Made by a program: the position numbers and the translations under genes. 64,000 nucleotides of DNA from Dichetophora obliterata (taxonomy: Eukaryota; Arthropoda; Insecta; Diptera; Sciomyzidae). The notes below the pieces were generated by a model that was not told the DNA's origin, ran no database searches, and saw only the letters and a list, made by a program, of their open reading frames with translations. The stretch lies in the NCBI GenBank assembly GCA_963920525.1, contig OY986435.1, positions 170,837,627 to 170,901,626 of the forward strand. The letters run 5' to 3'. Below, in pieces: positions 25,177 through 63,560 of this stretch (positions are counted from its first letter, which is position 1; every line of letters begins with the position of its first letter).

Positions 25177-27036
25177 TTCTGCGGCATGGGATTTGGTAGT
25201 CAATTTTAGTATATACTTTTATAAAGATCTTAGCCTATTATTTCAATTATTTGAATTGACTCCGGTTCTCGCGATAAACCGCTATTTTAAAATTAAGGAG
25301 GTTTCATCACAGATTTTAACATTACTCCAGAACAGTAAGTCTGATTTGCTAAAATAAAAAATCCAAAAATTGCCTCCAAGTAACATATACACTGTTTTTT
25401 AATTAGCTTAATAGTTTCGGAAATATTGTGAAAGTTCTTCTGAAAAAAACATTTTTTTTATGCAAAATTTAAACTTTTTTATTATTTCATAATTCATAAA
25501 AATTCAAAAACATAAAAATAGCTCTTTTTTTGATAATAAGTTATAAACACACATTTATTACAAAGAAAATAAGCCATATTTCATTAAAATGTATTGGAAT
25601 GTTTTGCCTTAATTCACATTTAATGATGTTATCTCATTTTGATACAAATCTTCTAAATAAATACACGAGGGAAAATTCGAGATCTAAATCTATCCAAAAA
25701 ATCAGCGGAGCTCAAGCATCAAGACTTAAATAAAAACGTTGTCGTCAGCCTGGCGTATTAGTTAAAACTTACCGGACTATAGAACGAGATATTCTTCAAT
25801 ACTTTGCAAAAGAGGAGAAAATCGTATACTGTAAGAATATTCATGAACTTTTAAATGCAATGGGGCTTCATAGATAGCTCAAAAATAAGTTTAAAATGTG
25901 TGTTACTGCATAATGGCAACATATTAGCTTCAATTCCGATAGCACATTCAACAAAACTTAAAGAACAATATCAAAATATCAAACTTATTTTAGAGAAAAT
26001 TGTATATGTTCAACACCAGTGGTCAGTGTGTGTTGATTTGAATATTGTTAACTTTTTATTGGGTCAGCAAGGTAGCTACACTAAATATCCATGTTTTCTT
26101 TGTCTATGGGACAGTCGTGCGAATAATAAGCACTACACTAGGAAAGTTTGGCTATCCAGAACAAATATGACTGCAGGCATAAATAAAATCGGTCATTATC
26201 CGTTAATATATCGAGAAAAAAATAATTTTGCCACCACTTCATATAAAACTTGAACTAAAGAAACAATATGTAAAAGCTTTGGATAAGATTGGCGAGTGAT
26301 ACAAATAAGTATATTTGCAAAGCATTTCTTGGCAAAATCACGGAAAAATTAAAAGCAGGCATCTTTGATGGGCCACAAATCCGAACTCTTATAAACAACA
26401 ATGATTTCACTTACCACATTACTAAGGTCGAATCAGAAGCATGGCTAAGTTTTTTATCAGTAGTTAAAAACTTTTTGGGGAATCATAAAGCTGCAGAGTA
26501 TTCTAAAATAGTTTCTAAAATGTTTTTAAATTTGTGGACTTATATTTTAAATGGATTTAAAATAAATAAGTGCAACCAAAATACCAAAGAAAATCCCATA
26601 GGAAACGATGGATTTTAATGAAATATGGCTTATTTTCTTCGTAACATATGTGCGTTTATAAGTAAATATCAAAAAAGAGCTATTTTGACGTTTTTGATTT
26701 TTTATGAATTATGATATAACAAAACAGATTAAGTTTTGCATAAAAATATGTTTTTTTCAGAAGAACTTTCTGAATATTTCCGAAACTATTCAGCTAATCA
26801 AAATACTTTGTAGATGTAACTTGGAGGCAATTTTGCTGCGGATGTTTGGATTGTTTATTTTACCAAATCAGACTAATTATTCTGGAGTTATGCTAAAATC
26901 TGTAATGAAACCTCCTTAATTTTTAAAATAGCGGCTTATCGCGAGAACCAGAGTCAATTCAAACAATGTGAATTATAGGATTAAAACTTCATTATCCCAT
27001 GTATCTTAATTGGCTCCAAAAACTTATGCCGCAGAA
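25177..27036 (+). mobile_element. Transposon with very long TIRs (about 370 bp)
   Basis: TTCTGCGGCAT starts the left arm and is mirrored at the right end. The arms stay similar for about 350-370 bp, including GAATTGACTC, GTTCTCGCGATAA, AAGGAGGTTTCAT and TTGCCTCCAAGT blocks. The core (about 25.6-26.7 kb) encodes a degenerate transposase-like protein. No clear target duplication seen. I cannot name the superfamily from motifs. Confidence 0.75.
25855..26618 (+). pseudogene. Transposon-borne protein of an unnamed insect family, broken
   Basis: Frame 1 (25855-26253) contains GFIDSSKISLKCVLLHNGN, SIPIAHSTKLKEQY and GQQGSYTKYPCFLCLWDSR. Frame 2 (26289-26618) continues with ICKAFLGKITEKLKAGIF, DGPQIRTLI and EAWLSFLSVVKNFLGNHK. 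This order of blocks is familiar from multi-copy uncharacterised insect proteins; C-x2-C in PCFLC may bind zinc. A stop and frame shift near 26253 and loss of the C-terminus make it inactive. Its place inside long TIRs suggests that it is the element's own transposase, which is an inference. Confidence 0.7.
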
Positions 27037-29109: not shown

Positions 29110-29660
29110 TAATACATCAATAGTCTAACTCTCCTTGATCACTCGAAAGCTTTTGTCTGCGTTGACCATACCATTTTGTGCACTAAATTGATAAGAATGC
29201 ATAATTTCTCCAACTCTGCAACAAAACTCATTTTCACTTATCTAAATGGTAGATCACAGGCAGTTATGACTAAAAATTCCCAATCTCGGCACCTAACTCT
29301 CACGCGGGGAGTACCACAAAGTTCGGTTCTTGGGCCACTTCTTTTCTCAATTTATATTAATTATCTTACCACCGTTTAGAAGCATTGCGCAATACACCTG
29401 TATGCAGATGACGTTCAACTTTACGCCAGTGCCCCGCTGAATAAAGTCACGCAGTGTATCCAAAATACAAACAGCGATTTGGAAAACATTTCTAATCAAA
29501 AAACCACTTGATCTATCTGAATGGCCAAAAATTAAAATGACTCAATCTGAGATAGGTTATATTGCTTCTGCAAAGAATCTGGCGATTACATTTAACAATA
29601 CTCGCTCGTAGAACAATCACATCTATTCTACTGTTGGTAAAGTGTACGGAATGTACGGAC
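29110..29660 (+). pseudogene. Jockey-like LINE reverse transcriptase, first part
   Basis: Starting with LLDHSKAFVCVDHTIL (degenerate motif A, D-x-S-K-A-F), the plus strand continues through YLNGRSQAV, LTRGVPQSSVLGPLLFSIY (motif B) and LYADDVQLYASAPLNK (catalytic YADD), ending near YSTVGKVYGMYG. The reading is broken by several shifts. The same protein resumes near 31285, so the copy has been split by inserted DNA. Confidence 0.85.
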
Positions 29661-36114: not shown

Positions 36115-39056
36115 TTATTCTAACTCCATAATGCTGAAATGACCCCACGGTAATGTCTCATTACTATTTGCCACCAAAAATCGCTTATTATCATGAGGGC
36201 TTAATGCAATTTTTGTTTGTATGATCGAACTTACTTCATGTTTCCGCGACTGAATTAAATTTTGCTGAACTGTCTTTTCAATGTTGTTTTCAAGGCAATC
36301 AACATAGTCACTAAACGTTATTTTAGTCTTGACTATGTTTCTTTTTACACCTTTCGAATTGTTCGTTGAATCTTCACCCTCTACCCGTATCGCATACATT
36401 TTTGCACGGAGCCCCACAAATTCAGTCATGATACTGCCATTATTCTCATCTTTCATGAGACCCAAAACTTTTTTATTGACTTGAGGAATATCCCACACGT
36501 TTTCACTAGGATAGTCGCTTGTGTCAAAGTGTATAAAGCAATCGCGTTTAATGACCTCATACAAGTCTTTACAAGCCACCTCATAAATTAGCGAATCAGT
36601 ATCGGTATCGCAAATGCAACAATTGGAACCAAATTGAGGAACCATGTAACCATAATGAAAATCGTAAATGGTTGTATTAGCTAAATCAAGGATGCACATA
36701 CCAACATAAATGGGTTTATTGAAGTATATTTCAGTTTTATTGAGTTCAATTGCCATCAAATTTTACCAAATATTGTTGAGGCTTTAAACTCGGGCTTAGA
36801 AATATGGGCTCATAACCAACTCGTCACCAATTTAACAACACTGTGTTTACGTATGTTTTCCATAGTTTTCCCAAACACAGCATTATTCATGAGTTTGAAA
36901 AGGTTCTTCTCAAACTCATTTTTAGCCGCTGTTCGAAGACTCGTGTTTAGATCGATATATGGCTTCAACCATGCAGATTGTCTAAATTGCAAAATTTTAT
37001 GAATTTTAGATAGTCTTAATCCATATTTATAATATATCTCACGCTACCACCCAAAGTTGCCAACAGTTTTTTCTGCTTTGATCCTGGAGGTGTAATATGA
37101 TCAGGGCAAAAGGGGAGATCTTTATGGTAATCGTGGAGATTAATTGGATGCTCTAAATCTACCTCGAGAATATATCCTACATCTGAATCGTCAGCTATGG
37201 CTTCAACATTAAAATTTTGAGAATCTGACAGCCAATGAAACTCACTGTGGGGGAGAAATTGAGACATGGCCCAACCATACTGATTATTAATGTCATAATA
37301 CATTAAGAATTTGGATGGTTGAGCCTCATCGAAATCAGCCATGTACTTATTGTTGGCTTTCGAATAACGCTTAGTACACTGGCTAAGACCCCCACGAATA
37401 CCTCGCTCTACAAACATGAGCATATCAATAGCCGTCAATAGCTCAAGGGTTATATCAGTATGCTTAAGCATTGCATCCCATGTATAGCCAGGTAGAGTGA
37501 AATAATGTGCGGGATCTAGACCATAAGTTTTATGACAACTTGTGCGAAATTGTTCGAAAATATCAGATAATAGTAACACGTCAGTTTTCAAGTAAATATC
37601 TGAATATTCACCCAATTTATTAATATTTAATTTAACCCAGACATTTTGTGCATGAGCATAATCCTCTGGGCAGATGTTTGTATCATTAAGTTTATTGTAA
37701 AAATGTGTAATATCGGGTAATGATGTTTCCGAAAATTTAGATGCATCATCGCAGTAGTCATACGGAAAGACACCCTTACGTGTCAGCAAATTTAATTGTT
37801 CATCATTTAAATTTTTAAACTCTGATTTTAGAATATTGAAATTTGGTAGATGTGAGGCTAAAGTATCTAAGCTATTCGCCATGAATCTGAATGAGTCGAT
37901 AAACCGATATTTTATTACATATTCGTCCAGTCGTTTTGTGAATGAAATGTAACGTTCCTTGTTTATTGCTAGAAGGTCAATGCGCCCCTTTAAATCTGTA
38001 GTTAAATTTTTAAAAATGAAATGTGAGTCATAACCTGTGAGATTATGAAAAATTATGGGTACTGTGTGTGAGTCTTTGAAGTTGATATTGCATCCCTCAT
38101 GCGCCGGGCCTCGATCAACACCGGTAAGATGCCAATGATCGCGTACCTTGACATCATCATTGGTAAAGGCTTTCTCACATATGTGAAATGTGTTGGCGAT
38201 CGCAAAACTTTGAACTTGCTCAACAGTCACGTCATCCATGGGTAGAGGGCGAAGAAAGACAGTTTCAACATTTTCGGCAAAATTATTTAGTTCCGAAACG
38301 AACCACTTAATACAATCTGCCCCGCGATAGCTTTTATAAAACGATAACGTGGGGTCATACGCACACTCAACATAAAAACCCACACTATATGGTATATGCT
38401 TCTGGTATGCATTTCCAACAATGGACTTTGCCAAAATGCATTCCAAATCGGCATATACCACAAATGGGGTCATGATCTTATTTTTAAAATTTTTAAAGCA
38501 AACCTCCTTCTCAGCTTCTGTCGGCATCCTTATTTTGCAATTGTTTAGTCTGCTGCAGTCCTCGGTGTGCTGCTCCAACTTGAGTGCTGAGTGGAAGTAG
38601 TGCAAACATCTATCGCAAAAATATTTGACATTTTTATTTCGCGACACTTGCCTGGTTAAAAGTCGTGAAAGGCTTTTTATCCACACATAATGGTATGTGA
38701 TTGGAACATCATCATTGCTGCTACCATCTCCATTATCAGCGACATTGTTGTTATCATTGTCATCATCTTCATTCTGATATCTGCTCTGCACCATAAGCAG
38801 ATTTATGTGACATTCCCTTTTAGTTTTCGTTAAATATGACGGTAGCACTGTAAATTTGCTTCTTTTTTTATGCAGAATGTATACATTAATTGAGATGTTA
38901 TATTTGTCAAATTTAGTAAATCACGATAATTCGGATACATTGATATGCGCTCCGTATTTATATTCGCTGGACGCAGATATCATTGCCCAAGCAAAACATG
39001 CGTTGTCATCATTTTTCACATTAACGCATGCTTTCTTGCTATGAATCTGTGGTGGT
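36115..39056 (-). pseudogene. Polinton-type DNA polymerase B, exon 2 main part (broken)
   Basis: In intact relatives this is a protein-primed DNA polymerase that copies a linear element. From the N-terminal side: KKACVNVKNDDNACFAWAM (near 39000); a TGA near 38925; a C2HC finger in CDRCLHYFHSALKLEQHTED; exonuclease I VVYADLECIL; an HNH-like patch DHWH with RGPAHEGCN; exonuclease II TGYDSHF; exonuclease III YSDIYLKTD; palm motif A YYDINNQYGWAM (37016-38848 frame); a frame break near 37020; motif [11 protein letters not shown] (36810-36992); a TGA and a frame shift near 36765-36810; motif C DTDTDS; C-terminus at 36115. All key acidic residues seem present, so inactivation is by stops and shifts. 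Known relatives are Polintons/Mavericks and adintoviruses. Confidence 0.9.
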
Positions 39057-39187
39057 TTCTTTTTCCGGTTCAGGATCTTGTCAAGTGTGTTTGTTCTCAT
39101 ATTTGAGCTAAGGCCAAAATTTAAAAACACAAATTTTAATTTTTGGCAACTTGCACCAATTATTAAAAACTTCTAATCTTGTTAAAT

Positions 39188-39529
39188 ATGTCCACCAAAG
39201 CTGAACTTGCTTGCGTCTACGCTTCCCTCATCTTGGTTGATGACGATGTCGCTGTTACAGGCGAAAAAATCTCTACCATCTTGAAGGCTGCCAATGTTGA
39301 GGTTGAGCCCTACTGGCCCGGCTTATTCGCAAAGGCCTTGGAAGGCATCAATGTAAAGGACTTAATCACCAACATCGGTTCCGGAGTTGGCGCTGGTGCA
39401 CCGGCCGGTGCTTCCGTTGCCGCTGGAAATGATGCCGCCCCAGCTGCAGAAGCTAAGAAAGAGGAAAATAAAAAGGAAGAAGAGCCAGAGGAATCTGATG
39501 ATGATATGGGTTTCGGTCTTTTCGATTAA
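39188..39529 (+). CDS. RpLP1: 60S acidic ribosomal protein P1 (retrocopy, frame intact)
   Basis: 113 codons from ATG at 39188. P1 pairs with P2 on the ribosomal stalk through its N-terminal helical domain (about residues 1-65, [20 protein letters not shown] at the start), joined by an Ala/Gly-rich hinge (about 66-90) to a Lys/Glu-rich stretch and the acidic tail [11 protein letters not shown], which contacts translation factors. Length equals the usual 110-115 residues and every domain is present. The start is fixed by family homology. GC content is well above its surroundings. No intron. Whether it is transcribed is unknown; an antisense polymerase gene offers no obvious promoter, but the copy includes its own 5' leader. 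Confidence 0.93.
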
Positions 39530-39628
39530 GCTGTTGACAGTCAACACTTTCTCAATGTAAAAAGATGTAGTTTTGTGGACTTGTTTGTAGTTTTGTACAC
39601 GTTTTAATGTACAAATTTATAAATACAA

Positions 39629-39634
39629 AATAAA
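39629..39634 (+). terminator. Polyadenylation signal of the RpLP1 retrocopy
   Basis: AATAAA, 17 nt before the start of the short A run at 39652-39657. This spacing is what cleavage and polyadenylation of the parent mRNA would give. Confidence 0.8.
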
Positions 39635-39657
39635 AGGAATTTTTGCATTATAAAAAA

Positions 39658-40049
39658 GTGGTAGTGGGATATATGACGATCCTAGCTGTGGCGTGAATTT
39701 GTTAATGTTCACTGCCAAGTTAACGACTGCAGCCAACGCCCATCCACTATCGCGTTCTTGGAACTCTTCCAGCTTTTTCAAAATTGCATTTTGAACATGC
39801 TCAAAAAACCAAGCCCTAATATCCGTTTCCTGGTAAATAGCAACATTTTTCGTGTTCATGAATTTCAAGTCACTAATTTCTTCATTAGCTCTAGTAACTC
39901 GAAATTTTCCACAAAATATTGTATTTACCTTAAGGGACGTAAATTTCGCTAAGGATTTTTTAACGGTGCGTTGGAAGAGATCTACACAATCTGCCAAGAA
40001 ATTCTGGGGATCTTTATGCATTAAATTAATTATAACGCCGGTACGTACT
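39658..40049 (-). pseudogene. Polinton-type DNA polymerase B, exon 2 first part
   Basis: Continues the same protein upstream of the RpLP1 insertion: VRTGVIINLMHKDPQNFLAD, KVNTIFCGKF, MNTKNVAIY and then EFQERDSGWALAAVVNL and VNINKFTPQLGSSYIP. These blocks are the standard N-terminal region of this arthropod polymerase family. No stop occurs in it. It is cut at about 39663 by the retrocopy, and the protein resumes on the other side at about 39056 in the same frame. Confidence 0.85.
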
Positions 40050-40138
40050 CTGAAAATTAAAATAGGGTTTAAATTAATATATTATATTAAATCAAAATAA
40101 GTAATATGGTAATGAAATTATTTAAAAATTAGGCTTAC
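40050..40138 (-). other. Spliceosomal intron in the polymerase gene
   Basis: Minus-strand donor GGACG|GTAAGC at 40139/40138 and acceptor TTTTCAG|AGTACG at 40050/40049 bracket 89 nt. Splicing joins the frames without a stop (a split Arg codon). The intron is AT-rich with a pyrimidine-rich acceptor. It shows that the gene was expressed by the host splicing machinery. Confidence 0.8.
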
Positions 40139-40458
40139 CGTCCACCAAATGTTGATTCGATTTCTTCCCATCGAATTCGAATAGAAGCCCAATTCGATCT
40201 GTTACCCGTTCGAAAAAGGCCTGCACCAGTGGTAGAGTTGAGTACCTTTAACTTGGCGCGGTAACCTTGAATCAGTCCTATTCCACATGTAGCACTCTGT
40301 TTCACTCCAACATTTGTTGCCCATCGTAAAATATCACGAAGGGTAATGAGATGTATAGAGCACTTCTTTATACTCGGTATAACTAGCTCACGATTCTTTT
40401 GCACATTTTCGTATAATGCTTTCGCGTTTTCTAAAATTTCATTGACGCGTGCACTCAT
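40139..40458 (-). pseudogene. Polinton-type DNA polymerase B, exon 1
   Basis: The ATG at 40458 (MSARVNEILENAKALYENVQ) opens a frame of about 106 codons with no stop, ending in WEEIESTFGG at the donor site. I chose this ATG because the few codons upstream in frame are AAT repeats without another ATG. Content is helical and not tied to a known domain, but the exon continues directly into conserved polymerase text after splicing. Whole gene: about 1.2 thousand codons when the retrocopy and intron are left out. Confidence 0.75.
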
Positions 40459-41434
40459 TTTATTATTATTCAATATAATTTTCTAGAAATAGGTTTAAAC
40501 GACTTATGTTGCTGATCAAATATTGAATGAATGAAATACTCTCGACTCAATCATTTATATTCGTATTCAAATAATAAACTATTCTGAAGTCCTTATCTTC
40601 AATTCCAACAACAACATAGTACTTCAACCACCTAACCCCATTCCATCAGCTTAGAACAATTAGCCTACATATAGTATATATCCTTTTAACTTAGGCTCTT
40701 ATGAGCTCATACGTTTCATGCTTATCTCCAATTTCATCATCATACGTTTCATGCTTCAGTTCATACGTTTCATGCTTATTTCCAATTTCGACAAAAAATA
40801 TTTAAAATTCTTGAGACTTAATCTGCAAGCATGAATGAGATATTAAATGTTCTTCAAAAGCCAATATATGATGAGAGCATTATAAAAATGGAATAACATA
40901 GCTACTCACCTAAAGCCATCAACATAATAAAATAAAATGAATAGATTGAGAGGGTATCATAAATAAATTTATTGCTACTACTGCGCTAGCAACTCGCACT
41001 TAGAGGAGAAGTGTAAGAAGAAGAAGGATGACCAAAAGTTAGCAAAATGGGCAAAGGAGCAAAAAGACGCTAAAAATTAGATTGGTAAAGGAGTAAAAAG
41101 ATGCAGAAACAGAAGAAGAAGATAGAGCAAAATTATACTCGAAGCTGAATGGTTAAATCAATTACTTTTTATGAATGTAATTATTACTTTTATTCATGTA
41201 ATTATCAAACTTTATATATAACAAATCAATAAAAAACAATAATGATTCATATATAAATCAACTCGTTTTGTTTTATTTATATCAGCATAGTTGCATATGG
41301 TCATGGTTACGATGACGCTTTCAATCTCTAGCTTAACTTATCATTAACCCAAACCGCCGCCGCAGCCGCCGTTGCTGCTTTCATACTTTGTCTTTACATA
41401 AGTCAACCAACTCATATTAAATTTATTAAAATGC
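40459..41434. other. Upstream region of the polymerase gene, with short repeats
   Basis: No gene seen. 40700-40790 has three direct copies of CATACGTTTCATGCTT followed by TCCAATTTC-like text, related to the CATACGTCTTCTATGC block of the subterminal repeats. They lie about 250-330 bp upstream of the polymerase ATG and could be regulatory or element-terminal repeats. Confidence 0.5.
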
Positions 41435-47215: not shown

Positions 47216-48852
47216 GGGGGTCCTCTGGTAATCTATGCCAAATTTTAGCCTTTTTTCAAAATATTGTGGAAAGAGAACGAGTAAAGATATTTTAGTTCCG
47301 TTATTTGATTTGTGTAGCTTAATTTATTGAAAAAAATACAAAATTTTGAAAAAGTGAATTTATGGACCGTTCAGAAAGTTCTCGGCCTGGTAACGAGGTT
47401 CTCCGGAAAAAAGGTGGGTCCAAATTGCGCACGATTCCAAGAGTAAACATCGTCTGAAAAAAAAAAAAATATTCAGTTACTTAGAATGAATGTCCCTATA
47501 GCCCCTACCTCGGAATCAAAAATTGAAATTTTTTTAGGGGGGGAGCCGCCACTTTGAAAATGAAAAATCGAATTTCGACCTTTTTTTTTGTAGTCTAGTG
47601 TAGAAAAAAATAGTAAACATTATTTTTTCGGCAAGTTTGAGGTAGGGGCTATAGCGGCGTAAATTCTGCGTCGTTTCATGCCTCATATATCAAAATCGGT
47701 CAAAAACTGTTTGAGTTATCGTGCGCAAAGTTTTGAAAAACATGGTTTCGAGAAAAACGCGTTTAAAGTTTTGACTTCAATTTTGAGGCACACAAATGAC
47801 ATTAACACATATTTTTTTAATACAATACTTACGAATATTAATCGGCAATTCCAGCCCCATAAAGTGTGCCTTCTTCCATCTCATAAAACGAGTTTTCCAT
47901 GGCTTTTTGGGCTCTGCGGGCTGTGCGACCCTCTTTCGATGATGCGTACGTTTTTAGCTCTGAGCGTTGAAGTCGTTTTCCGTCGCGAGATTCAGCATAC
48001 ATCTCGGCTTGTGGGCCGATGACAATACCCATTGTTGACATTATTTTTAAAATACTTGTGAAGCCTTCGTTGAAAATGCAGGTTGCCAGAAAATTTGCGA
48101 TTTCGACTGTGGTAGCACCACAGTGGATATGTTTCGGCGCAAAGGTCCACAAAAGCGAGTTGAACGATTCGTTACAATTTTGCGTTTCACCTCCAGTGCA
48201 TCGGTTGAGTAGATCGTCGGATGATAACGCTTCGTATATGGGCTTCATTACTTGCAGAACCTTTCCATCAAGTGGGGCGTACGTGTGGTGAAATGAGGCT
48301 AATGAGCCTTCTGCTGCTGACTTTTGATAGGCGCACCAGCTGGACTCACCAGGTGGGCAATATATATGTTGTGGATTACTATCACTTGAACTTTTGTGAT
48401 AATATGTTGACCATATTTCTTTTCTCATGTTTTCCACAGAGTCCTTATTACGTCGAATAGCAAGTCCATAGTAAGTAGTCAGCTCGCTTATGACTTTGTC
48501 TGTCAGTTTGCCAGTGCCTTTTCCACCGATGCCTTTGTTTTCTTTTTTGGCCTTGCGCAGCCGTGTGCCCATGCGTGTTGCACGTGAGCGATGCACTCCT
48601 TTTTTGTGACAACGGGGTCGCCATTATACGGATCAAGGTCTATAATGGCCTTGAAGGTTTTGCTGTCGCCATCGCCAATATATTTTTCATATTTTATGCC
48701 ATATTTTTCGATCGATGAGGCAAATGCCTGTATCTCCTAAACTATTTCGAATTTTGAAAAATCCTTTTGGGAAAATGTTTTTGAGTATCTGAGCAATAGA
48801 AATATGAAAAAAAAAATCGAAAAAAAATTTTTCGGATTACCAGAGGACCCCC
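47216..48852 (-). mobile_element. Kolobok-like element (TTAA target)
   Basis: Perfect inverted ends GGGGGTCCTCTGGTAATC with TTAA at 47212-47215 and 48853-48856, length 1637 bp. It carries the C-terminal two thirds of a Mutator/Kolobok-type transposase. TTAA target and G-run start fit Kolobok. The 5' part of the gene is missing, so the copy depends on others. Confidence 0.85.
47838..48720 (-). pseudogene. Mutator-like (Kolobok) transposase, N-terminally truncated
   Basis: The minus strand reads YIGDGDSKTFKAI and KKECIAHVQ (near 48700-48580), then after one frame shift RMGTRLRKAKK, GKGTGKLTDKVISELTTYYG, AIRRNKDSVENMRKEIW, CPPGESSWCAYQK, DLLNRCTGGETQNCNESFNS and a C-terminus EEGTLYGAGIAD. These are the ordered blocks of the insect Mutator-like transposase domain; GDGDSK probably holds a catalytic Asp. 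The 252-codon ORF at 47838-48596 is intact. The single shift lies near 48575. The N-terminal third is absent, so activity is unlikely. Confidence 0.88.
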
Positions 48853-56360: not shown

Positions 56361-56367
56361 CATTTAA

Positions 56368-56723
56368 AGCTTAGTATGCTGTAGGAACGAAAATTTTTAG
56401 GCATTTAATTCTACACACGAAATTTCGGTGTATACTCAACACTAACACATACTTACCACAACGTGTTAGTTGAATGGGTTAGTTGAACATTATTATTGAA
56501 TGTCAAATTTCCACGCCAATTAAATGTACCGACATATAAAAGGCAGCGAGATTCTGACATTTTAATTCTCCAATCGTGGCTGTGAACTTGGCTGTATTGA
56601 ACAAATTTTTCAATTCAACAGCGTATTAACCAACGAAAAAAAAAATTTCGCTACCTCTTCGCTGTCAAAATTGCAATGCATTTCTTACGGAAGATTTCTT
56701 TTCGCTTCCACAGCATACTAGGC
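56368..56723. mobile_element. TTAA MITE, copy A
   Basis: Inverted ends GCTTAGTATGCTGT and mirrored GCCTAGTATGCTGT, 356 bp, with TTAA at 56364-56367 and 56724-56727. Copy B at 58395-58744 is the same family in inverse orientation. TTAA target suggests piggyBac or Kolobok mobilisation. Non-coding. Confidence 0.85.
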
Positions 56724-57350
56724 TTAATTTTTGAATTGAAAGTTTACTTAGTAACAATATAACTACACAAATGATTGCATTTTACATGAAATTATTTATT
56801 AAAGATTTGATTTTTAGCCTTATTCTTATGATTGACAACTGTAAATTTATTGACAAGCTAGTCTTTTATGTTCCATTTTCTTGGTCCATGGAGTTAGAAA
56901 CATCCAAAATGTTTTCGCAAAATTATTTATTGTGAATATTTTTTCTGATGTTGACATTTTTGTCAAGTAATGAGTTATTGTATACATTTAACAATAGCAA
57001 TCTTTGCAACTATCAATAAATTTGCAATTGATGCATTTGCTGCAAAATGGGGGTGTGAGCCTTTCACTATTTTACTTGAATAGCAGATAATGATTATATT
57101 ATCATACACTACTGTTCTGAAAAATTTCACATCGATACAAAGAACTTTATTGTCATTTTCTGCAAAAAGGGTGTGAGCTTGGCGTCCTTTTACACCCAAC
57201 TGTTTTTCATATGATATGGGCGTGTGACAAAACGTCGATACCCAGTAGTTCCAGTCTTGAAGAAATTTCAAATGAATTATGTACAATTTTTCTTGATTCT
57301 TGACTTAGCATTCTGATTTGGCCATACATTTCATTGACGAAAATTTCATA
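56724..57350. other. AT-rich spacer, no gene seen
   Basis: Lies between the two inverted TTAA MITEs. No recognisable coding content. Confidence 0.4.
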
Positions 57351-57479
57351 TAAATGTTCCAAATTCGTGCAAGACGCAATGCAGAAACTTCGGGACTATT
57401 CATGCACGAACCCAATATCGAAATATTGAGGAAGTTTCGTGAGCGAAAAGTAGACAGGGATATAAAGAAAATTCGTCAA

Positions 57480-57830
57480 GGAATTAAAATCAAAACGTGC
57501 TTATGGACCGAATTCAACGTCGTGCGATATATTTGATAGGGGATAAAAATATTTCATACTCTTTCAACTCTATTTGAAATCGACGTAATGTTGGTTTCGT
57601 AATGGCCTGCCGCCACTCGGTCCAATCGGATAGCTGTCCAAGCCCATTCCTTTACCATTTCCTTGATGCCACACAGAACCTCACGTTGTAGTGATAATTC
57701 GTTCTTTATTCGTACGGTAAAGTTGTGGACGTTTTGAGCTGTGCAAATTTATAAAAAATTGTCAAAATCGAACGAATTCATCACGAAAAGTTCATCTATG
57801 ATGCCGCGAACTACTGGGGTGTTTGAACTT
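57480..57830 (+). pseudogene. LINE reverse transcriptase C-terminal fragment
   Basis: In shifting frames the plus strand has LMDRIQRRAIYLIGDKNISY, NRRNVGFV, AHSFTI and NSFFIRTVKLW. D-R-x-Q-R-R-A and N-x-F-x-x-R-T-x-x-L-W are familiar from the RT C-terminal region of insect LINEs. Highly degenerate, no ends found. Confidence 0.65.
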
Positions 57831-58394
57831 TTAGCTCTGTATTGTTATATATGACTAATATAGGGCTCAAAAAGAGCTGCAGAAAAATTTTTTAAAATAG
57901 CACCCATATCAATAATAACTCGAATATCACAAATGACGTGAACAAAACTTTTTGCTTTATCAAAGATATGCATGCATATCAAATTTTATGAAAATCGGAG
58001 CGATAAAATGCATTTTTTGCAAAAAGGGTGTCATACATGACTTTTTAAAGTAACCTGTTTTAATACGTATCCTTAAAAATTTAATAAAAAAATTTTAATC
58101 ACTCACTGAAAAAAACATCAGAATTTATTTCAAGAAAGAAATCAGCAAAATTTAACCATTACTTTACGAGCTATAAGCTGTTAAAAACTTAAGACTCGAT
58201 TTTCTCGAAACACAGTTTTTTTCACAAGCCCTTTTTGCACCTAATGCATCAATTGTCAAACACTAGAATAAAATTATAAATATTAAAAATAAAAAACAAG
58301 CAGAACAAACACGATTCATTTTATTTAAAACACCTAGCTAAAAATACTAAGCAATTAAGTTGTATTTTAGTTTTTATATTTGTTATAATATTAA

Positions 58395-58744
58395 GCTTAG
58401 TATGCTGTAGAAGCGAAAAGAAATCTTCCGTAAGAAATGCATTGCGTTTTTGACAGCGAAAAGGTAGCGAAACTTTTCTTTCTTTGGTCAGAACGCTGTT
58501 GAACCGAAAAATTTGTTCAATGCAGTTCACAACCATGATTGGAGAGTTAAAATGTCAAAATTTCGCTGTCTTTTATATGTCCGTACATGCAATTGGCGTG
58601 GAAATTTGACATTCAACAATAATCTTCAACCAACACATTCAACAAACACGTTATGGTAAGTATGTGTTAGTGTTGAGACTACACCAAAATTTCGCGTGTA
58701 GAATTAAATGCCTAGAAATTTTCGTTCCTACAGCATACTAAGCT
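58395..58744. mobile_element. TTAA MITE, copy B (inverse of copy A)
   Basis: 350 bp with the same ends as copy A in the opposite direction, TTAA at 58391-58394 and 58745-58748. Shares ACATATAAAAGGCAG-like, GGAAATTTGACATTCAA-like and AAGAAATCTTCCGTAAG blocks with copy A (mirrored). Confidence 0.85.
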
Positions 58745-58867
58745 TTAAGTTAGATCTAGTTTTGGAGTGTAAGTCTCCAATCCTCCAATAAATTAAAATT
58801 CCCAATTCGGCAGCGATTTTTTTCCATTGCATAAGGACCAACAAATTGGGTAATTGCAAAAAAAAGT

Positions 58868-62046: not shown

Positions 62047-62955
62047 GTAACAAAATAGGAAACTTAGACAGCAATACCTCAAAAAATGTTTGCATGTATT
62101 TGTGCATGAAAAAAATCAACAATGGCCGCCACTCTTGTTCTTAGTCGGCCGCAAGCTCACAGAGAAATCACTTGGCAACTCCTGAAATTAATGCATATAA
62201 TCTGTTTGTTAGTATATAAATACTTAAGTTAGGTTGCAATAAGATGTTTGCAACCAAAACTTATTAATTCGCTTTATATTGGTCTATATATGCTTTTAAA
62301 GTTCGGAAATTTCTTCAGTTATTGTATTTGTCAACATATTTGAAACATTTGCTTTTGCTCAAACCACCGCATGGTGAGATTTAAAAATGGAACCATCTTC
62401 TTTTTCTGCATTTTCTGCTGGAACTTCGTTTGCAAATAAGATAAATAATGTTGGATGAGGTGTTTTAACATTTTAATCTTTAAGCTGTGATAAAGGAATA
62501 TGTTGAACACTCAAGTAATTACATGCATGCTCTTATTTTATTACATATCGTCAAACAAAGTTTTACAATTTTCACACTTGTTGTATTTGTCAGTGGCTTT
62601 TTATTTTCACCACGGCGGCATGTTATTTTCAGAGTTGCCAACATCATTGTTTTATTAATATATTTTTTCATAAAGGTTGTGTGTCAAATGGAAACTTTTC
62701 AGTCGTGGTAGGATAGAAAATATCAGGTGGAATTAAATTTGTGTGTGTTGAAATAAATTTGTCTTATTTGCTGTGTTAAATGGACGATGGAATTTTGACA
62801 ATTGTAAATTTTGACGTTTCACATTTCGATCGTGTCTTAGCGCAAATATTTTATTTAATTTGCATTTTATTCAATTTGCACATATTCAATTCGAGTGCTT
62901 GTGCTTGCAACTTATTTCGTAAACTTGTAATATTGTAAACTTAAAAAACTTAAAA
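62047..62955. other. Spacer between direct repeat and foldback, no gene seen
   Basis: The 62487-62711 frame is hydrophobic and could be read as membrane segments, but nothing supports it as a gene. 62880-62960 is A-rich and 5'-leader-like. Confidence 0.35.
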
Positions 62956-62960
62956 AGAAC

Positions 62961-63550
62961 GAAAGTGCTTGAGTTTGTGTGTGCGTGTGTGTGGGTCAAC
63001 AATCTCCCGGTGCATCAGCAAGTGCAGTAAAGTTAAATTGGCTTTCTTTGCTGGCGAACGTCCTTCAAGTGCCACCACCACCAAGAGCAGTGCAAAATTT
63101 GTTGCTAGCCAACATCCTACAAGTGCCATCACCAGCAGCACAAGCAAGTGCAGCGCAAATTTCCTGATTCGGTTGCTTGCCTACGTTCTCCGAGAGTCAA
63201 CCATTAGCAGCACCAGCAAGTGCAGCACAATTCAATGGACTGGTCAACTCTCCAATATTTCAGAAGCACCATTTCAGCATGTCTCAAGCGCAGAGGCAAA
63301 TTTCTGCCATTATACTCCGGCGAGAATTAAATAAATTGAAAGCGGAGAATTTGCGATACATTCGCTTGTGCTGCTGGCAATGGCACTTGGAGGATGTTGG
63401 CTAAATTTGCGCTGCACTTGCTTGTGCTGCTCGTGGTGGCACTTGGAGGACGTTCACCAGCAAAGAAAGCCAATTTTACTTTGCTGCACTTGCTGATACA
63501 CCGGGAGATCGTTGGCCCACAGACACGCACACACAAACTCAAGCACTTTC
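62961..63550. mobile_element. Foldback-like element with tandem units in the arms
   Basis: GAAAGTGCTTGAGTTTGTGT at 62961 is mirrored at the right end 63550. The arms (about 200 and 165 bp) contain tandem units of about 65 bp with AACATCC, CAAGTGCCA, CAGCACAAGCAAGTGCAG and CAAATTT, three on the left and two on the right. Both strands therefore show similar Ser/Thr/Lys-rich frames, which are artefacts. The plan resembles FB-type foldback elements. Confidence 0.72.
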
Positions 63551-63560
63551 TTTTTTTTTT

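Follow-up and report, generated by a model that had tools for sequence, protein, structure and literature searches.

A young processed copy of RpLP1 mRNA lies antisense in a broken Polinton-type DNA polymerase gene of Dichetophora obliterata

The stretch of D. obliterata DNA analysed here (64,000 nucleotides, referred to as the window) carries a 601-bp copy of the mRNA for ribosomal protein P1 (RpLP1), inserted in the antisense orientation within a family-B DNA polymerase gene (PolB). The copy lacks the parental intron, starts inside the parental TOP tract, is flanked by a target-site duplication, is little diverged from its parent and has many siblings in the same genome. It is very probable that the copy goes back to a spliced RpLP1 mRNA whose germline reverse transcript entered a Polinton-type PolB gene, producing a 5-bp duplication, and that it is young and most likely a pseudogene. 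The insert and the gene surrounding it are composed of the following features.

39057-39657, plus strand: RpLP1 retrocopy (processed mRNA copy) of 601 bp, without the parental intron and matching the exons of the parent, locus L006
39052-39056: target-site duplication GTGGT, left copy, flanking the insert
39658-39662: target-site duplication GTGGT, right copy, flanking the insert
39057-39187, plus strand: 5' untranslated leader of 131 bases, free of ATG; the first ten bases correspond to the TOP tract of the parent, from which they differ by three C-to-T changes
39188-39529, plus strand: intact RpLP1 coding frame of 113 codons and a stop, with the ATG at 39188
39259-39260, plus strand: junction between codons 24 and 25, the site of the 163-bp intron (GTAAGT...TTTTCAG) in L006
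39530-39651, plus strand: 3' untranslated region containing AATAAA (39629) and no private substitutions
39652-39657, plus strand: A6 at the 3' end, where the parent encodes A5
40138-40482, minus strand: PolB first exon, weakly conserved, matched by the relative P0123 over 40440-40138 at 26% identity
40052-40137, minus strand: probable spliceosomal intron of PolB with GT...AG ends; the matches to P0123 stop at 40138 and resume at 40051
39663-40051, minus strand: upstream coding piece of PolB up to the insert, identified by tblastn with relatives
36118-39051, minus strand: PolB downstream of the insert, broken, with DNA_pol_B_2 (PF03175)

The borders of the insert and its GTGGT duplication are those given in a preliminary description made from the letters of the window, and the undamaged 113-codon frame reported there was recovered as well. 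The frame product is ribosomal P1 (Pfam PF00428, E=1.6e-29), and the best solved P1 structure matches its residues 2-113. The nearest proteins, taken from the best 120 of 3428 relatives, include those of calyptrate flies, with Calliphora vicina at the top (93%) and Lucilia cuprina at 91%.

The assembly that contains the window (C1:170837627-170901626) has a length of 1.3127 Gb in 76 contigs and holds at least 54 matches to PF00428; this count is a lower bound from scoring the best candidates, and the sequence around all 54 was examined. The parental RpLP1 gene is L006, located on contig C2, and the window copy is on C1. The coding region of L006 is split between codons 24 and 25 by the 163-bp intron, which is missing from the window copy. 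The insert is a retrocopy with an intron-bearing parent in the same genome, as the preliminary description had supposed. That it might be the sole RpLP1 of the genome, which the same description had raised against its own reading, is rejected since the parent and further copies were found. The window copy, locus L005, matches the L006 exons over its full length except for approximately 23 bases of 3' untranslated region without a counterpart in L006. These bases are kept in L005, L008 and L009 and are missing in L006, L003 and L004. Due to their absence from L006, the window copy presumably derives from an older parental allele.

The ends of the insert appear to coincide with the start and the poly(A) site of the parental mRNA, whose ends were taken from sibling copies and not from RNA. 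The ten bases at the 5' end align with the parental CTCCCTTTCC, which is also kept in L003, and the matches of L003 and L008 to the parent start in the same pyrimidine tract. The TOP-like 5' end noted earlier is upheld in that the copy starts within the parental TOP tract, but three positions (39057, 39060 and 39061, the first of which is the first base of the copy) differ from the parent, each as C to T. No parental sequence 5' of the TOP-tract start was seen in the window copy, and because the copy starts inside this tract, no parental upstream sequence was brought along. A search for a Motif 1-like word (two mismatches or fewer) from -300 bp to +60 bp around the start gave no hit in either the parent or the copy; as the word is missing from the parent too, it is uninformative on promoter loss. 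At the 3' end, the body of the copy stops 22 bases past the first base of AATAAA. Both AATAAA and the A6 of the preliminary description are present, but neither can be kept as a strong tail mark. The parent reads TTATAAAAAGTGAA (A5) where the copy has A6, which makes A6 weak as tail evidence, and the polyadenylation word, AATAAA in the window copy and older copies, is AATGAA in the assembled parent. A genuine run of approximately 18 A is found in L004.

The interrupted gene encodes a family-B polymerase of the DNA_pol_B_2 (viral, organellar) type. The minus-strand ORF at 37016-38920 matches DNA_pol_B_2 (Pfam PF03175, E=5.9e-17). The named relatives among the best 120 of 3434 matches are mostly insect proteins entered as "DNA-directed DNA polymerase", hypothetical or uncharacterized. 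When these 120 were compared with the window by tblastn, 45 aligned to both sides of the insert, which bears out the polymerase homology described earlier, and in many relatives the match ends at 39659 and the next starts at 39055 at the same residue. A KKACVN-type motif preceded by more than 40 residues was found in 22 of the listed relatives, and every one of them has P-x-x-[I/V/L]-x-x-[K/R][K/R] at the insertion site, with the conserved P and the site I/V/L two residues apart. This spacing fits a 5-bp duplication and does not fit one of 8 bp, which rules out the candidate 8-bp duplication with one mismatch. The target-site duplications of LINE-mediated copies are usually longer than 5 bp. 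The polymerase frame itself is damaged, with in-frame stops near 38923 and 36812, across which 63 and 62 of the 120 relatives align, respectively, and with frame breaks near 37022-37028 and 36762. If PolB is transcribed, its transcripts would include antisense RpLP1.

The host gene is classified as putatively Polinton-type by its polymerase alone, and other Polinton genes were not recognised around it. Of the 84 stop-to-stop ORFs of at least 60 aa listed between 24 and 48 kb, 59 were scanned, and none of them is an integrase, A32 ATPase, protease or capsid gene; the scan left aside ORFs in PolB, RpLP1 and some others, was extended with the same result to longer ORFs and may pass over shorter decayed pieces. 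These 59 ORFs gave only reverse transcriptase, DDE_3 and DUF4817 pieces, and in 28-64 kb there is no inverted repeat of 40 nt or longer that has one arm close to PolB. An endonuclease VII-like stretch was recognised by eye in the window PolB ORF and is annotated in several relatives. In insect Mavericks (Sf Mavericks), POLB has been described as containing endonuclease VII and PolB2 parts (PMC5803895), and the window resembles these elements in its family-B DNA polymerase and its endonuclease VII-like stretch; it differs in showing a broken polymerase only, without an integrase, ATPase or capsid gene among the scanned ORFs. When viral contigs were searched with an alignment built from 12 of these relatives, a distant PolB relative (39% identity) was identified on contig L001, where its neighbours are an integrase of the rve type (E=6.4e-08) and an ATPase matching Pox_A32 (E=5.6e-11). 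A single-piece PolB query returned no relatives from the viral contigs, and an RpLP1 query returned none from the genome contigs and viral contigs.

Several further features are located elsewhere in the window. A reverse transcriptase piece (PF00078, E=1.7e-07) is found at 29113-29379, and nothing ties it to the insertion event. Two neighbouring open frames at 25855-26618 (132 and 114 aa) have no Pfam match and look like one broken protein, presumably resembling a common arthropod protein of unknown role. An open frame of 261 aa at 47838-48623 exhibits a match to a Mutator-like transposase (PF20700, E=7.8e-09). Long inverted repeats are present at 56364-58748 (225 nt at 91%) and 62952-63559 (132 nt at 91%), and both may be foldback elements.

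L005 and L006 differ at 13 of 578 compared bases. Three of the differences are not counted as changes of the body: at 39505 and 39632 the L005 base is common to older siblings, and 39657 belongs to the tail. The changes that are the copy's own lie at 39060, 39101, 39124, 39128, 39193, 39208, 39427 and 39469, and its ten also include 39057 and 39061, both of which are common to L008, with 39057 also in L007. The window copy thus has 8-10 own substitutions in 601 bp (1.3-1.7%), in line with the recent origin proposed for it. The first 152 bp (39057-39208) hold eight of the ten changes (P=0.0005, post hoc). Base sharing among the RpLP1 copies suggests an order in which L008 and L009 are older, followed by L005 and then by L003 and L004.

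Four of the changes fall in the coding frame, three silent and one replacement (K94N), and the encoded protein is otherwise that of the parent. The residues S76, V77 and N81 were considered as decay of the window copy and rejected, as the parent carries all three. Residue 94 is N in none of the best 120 of 3428 relatives, K in 61, E in one and a gap in 58. A neutral expectation of 74% replacement gives a probability of 0.055 for one or fewer replacements in four. The private changes of six siblings (L002, L003, L004, L007, L008 and L009), when pooled, comprise 3 silent and 16 replacement, which matches neutral decay; this pool does not include the already broken L015 and L019, and the alignment in use contains nine RpLP1 loci with the window copy and excludes L022, L050 and L054. 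Against these siblings the silent excess of the window copy has a one-sided Fisher P=0.04, post hoc.

These values bear on the strongest alternative, namely that the copy is an expressed and selected retrogene providing an additional P1 protein, whose transcription would start from the copied leader or be driven by a promoter of the PolB remnant. The silent excess, which the comparison of silent and replacement changes called for in the preliminary description did bring out, is only a hint of constraint; with only four coding changes, a test for selection has little power. The frame is intact and AATAAA is present. However, an intact frame is expected at this divergence without selection with a probability of 0.35-0.63 (indel rates assumed), so frame intactness is not an argument for function and was rejected as proof of selection on its own. 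Expressed ribosomal-protein retrogenes are known in Drosophila (PMC2246290, PMC1839131). Against this reading, in the window copy three TOP positions have changed from the parent and nothing 5' of the TOP tract was copied, the replacement K94N introduces a residue absent from all 120 listed relatives, and the siblings decay as expected without selection. A selected retrogene is thus considered improbable, and expression of the copy, which the preliminary description had held possible by virtue of its own start and leader, appears unlikely.

The PF00428 matches of the assembly consist of 38 RpLP1-like loci, 7 RpLP2-like loci and 7 RpLP0-like loci, with L043 contributing two matches and L052 unplaced. 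The 38 RpLP1-like loci are composed of the parent, 12 copies (window copy included) and 25 loci in an element with terminal inverted repeats (TIRs). The 12 copies outside the TIR element are L002, L003, L004, L005, L007, L008, L009, L015, L019, L022, L050 and L054. Ten of these, L005 included, cross the intron point without an intron, and L022 and L054 do not span it. An ATG-started frame of 113 codons is kept in five (L002, L003, L004, L005 and L008), L007 is without the ATG, and L009 is frameshifted. The proteins of L002 and L003 are equal to that of the parent, and L019 is old and broken.

The RpLP2 loci are L010-L014, L016 and L017, with L013 as the intron-bearing parent. Each of the six other RpLP2 copies is missing at least one parental intron, and five of them (not L016) contain the leader from its CTTTTC start. 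The RpLP0 loci are L021, L023-L025, L031, L032 and L036, of which L021 is the intron-bearing parent and six are other copies; L023, L025, L032 and L036 are without the parental introns, and L024 and L031 do not span them. L023 and L024 possibly represent a single copy that was duplicated. Runs of A are found at the ends of several copies, for example L010, L011, L016 and L036. Duplications of 5 bp are present at the expected ends of L005, L008 and L009, and candidates of 4-6 bp were recognised by eye for L003, L011 and L032; none was found for L004 and L019 in a search over many offsets, and L002 and L007 gave no clear one. With that many offsets a chance 5-mer match is estimated in about half of cases, and only duplications at expected ends are cited as such.

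The TIR element was delimited at L034:1497-2609 as a unit of 1,113 bp, whose terminal inverted repeats are imperfect (27 bp, 78%). The RpLP1 body occupies 1717-2225 of this locus, beginning at insert position 102, and Rfam gave no matches on L034. The 25 element loci (L034 and 24 others among L018-L053) match this element outside the RpLP1 body as well, on both sides in 14 cases and on one side in 11, and their RpLP1 parts have 72.8-89.5% identity to the window copy. The RpLP1 part of L034 shares its starting point, insert position 101-102, with L004 and L009, a hint that the leader contains a second transcription start or a point at which reverse transcription stops. The element is read as an old 5'-truncated RpLP1 cDNA that was probably caught in a non-autonomous DNA transposon and then amplified.

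A broader reading would make the window copy a translated young retrogene with a portable TOP-leader start, in a lineage with recurrent copying of stalk mRNAs from the 5' end and with an earlier cDNA as cargo of the TIR transposon; taken as a whole, it is quite improbable. The element also raises the alternative that the window copy arose by DNA-based duplication, or as part of an RpLP1-carrying TIR element, and not by retroposition. The 25 of 38 RpLP1-like loci that share flanks with L034 indicate that RpLP1 sequence does move as DNA in this genome. The window copy, however, begins approximately 101 bp further 5' than the RpLP1 part of the element, has no match to the element flanks, is bordered by PolB sequence on both sides and is missing the parental intron. 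Its identity to the parent (94.6%) also exceeds that to the element copies. A DNA-based origin is very improbable. That the copy is an artefact of assembly or of cDNA contamination, a concern insofar as the analysis is based on one assembly, is hardly credible given the exact 5-bp duplication, the private substitutions against nine aligned RpLP1 loci and the PolB coding homology that resumes in the same frame beyond the insert.

Under the retroposition of a mature spliced RpLP1 mRNA, reverse transcription would have taken place in the germline, presumably by a LINE-type reverse transcriptase acting in trans on an abundant ribosomal-protein mRNA. The cDNA would then have been inserted antisense into PolB with the GTGGT duplication at the target site, giving a copy without the parental promoter region and probably without function. 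Fly substitution rates would give the insertion an age of the order of one million years. The window copy would be one of a series of RpLP0, RpLP1 and RpLP2 mRNA copies, many of them made from the parental 5' end or near it. Points against this explanation are the silent-leaning coding changes (P=0.055), an A6 that is mostly parent-encoded, the short duplication and the clustering of changes towards the 5' end.

Ribosomal-protein processed pseudogenes and retrogenes named for Drosophila in PMC2246290 are RpS10a, RpS15Ab, RpS28a, RpL10Aa and RpL37b. Like these, the window copy reproduces a ribosomal-protein mRNA without introns at a new location, and RpLP1 is not among the five named there. This fly differs in that a single genome contains 12 RpLP1 copies that are neither the parent nor part of the TIR element; of these, the window copy lies inside a transposon gene. 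Literature searches brought up no title about a Polinton with an RpLP1 retrocopy or about an RpLP1-carrying TIR element, although this does not prove absence. DNA transposons are known to take up host genes, as in Pack-MULE-like capture. The 1.1-kb TIR element resembles Pack-MULEs in carrying host gene cDNA in many copies, a likeness that concerns the sibling element and not the window copy.

As a single locus, the window copy is an ordinary processed copy that is not special in its own genome, and the RpLP1-carrying TIR element is the less ordinary find. Few processed pseudogenes are kept in Drosophila. The set of RpLP1, RpLP2 and RpLP0 retrocopies, which extends from copies with a protein equal to that of the parent to old broken ones, is more useful than the single locus, and such a series would let the rate of retroposition, the length of target-site duplications and neutral decay be measured in Diptera. 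The genome further preserves a DNA transposon by which the cDNA of a ribosomal protein was amplified.
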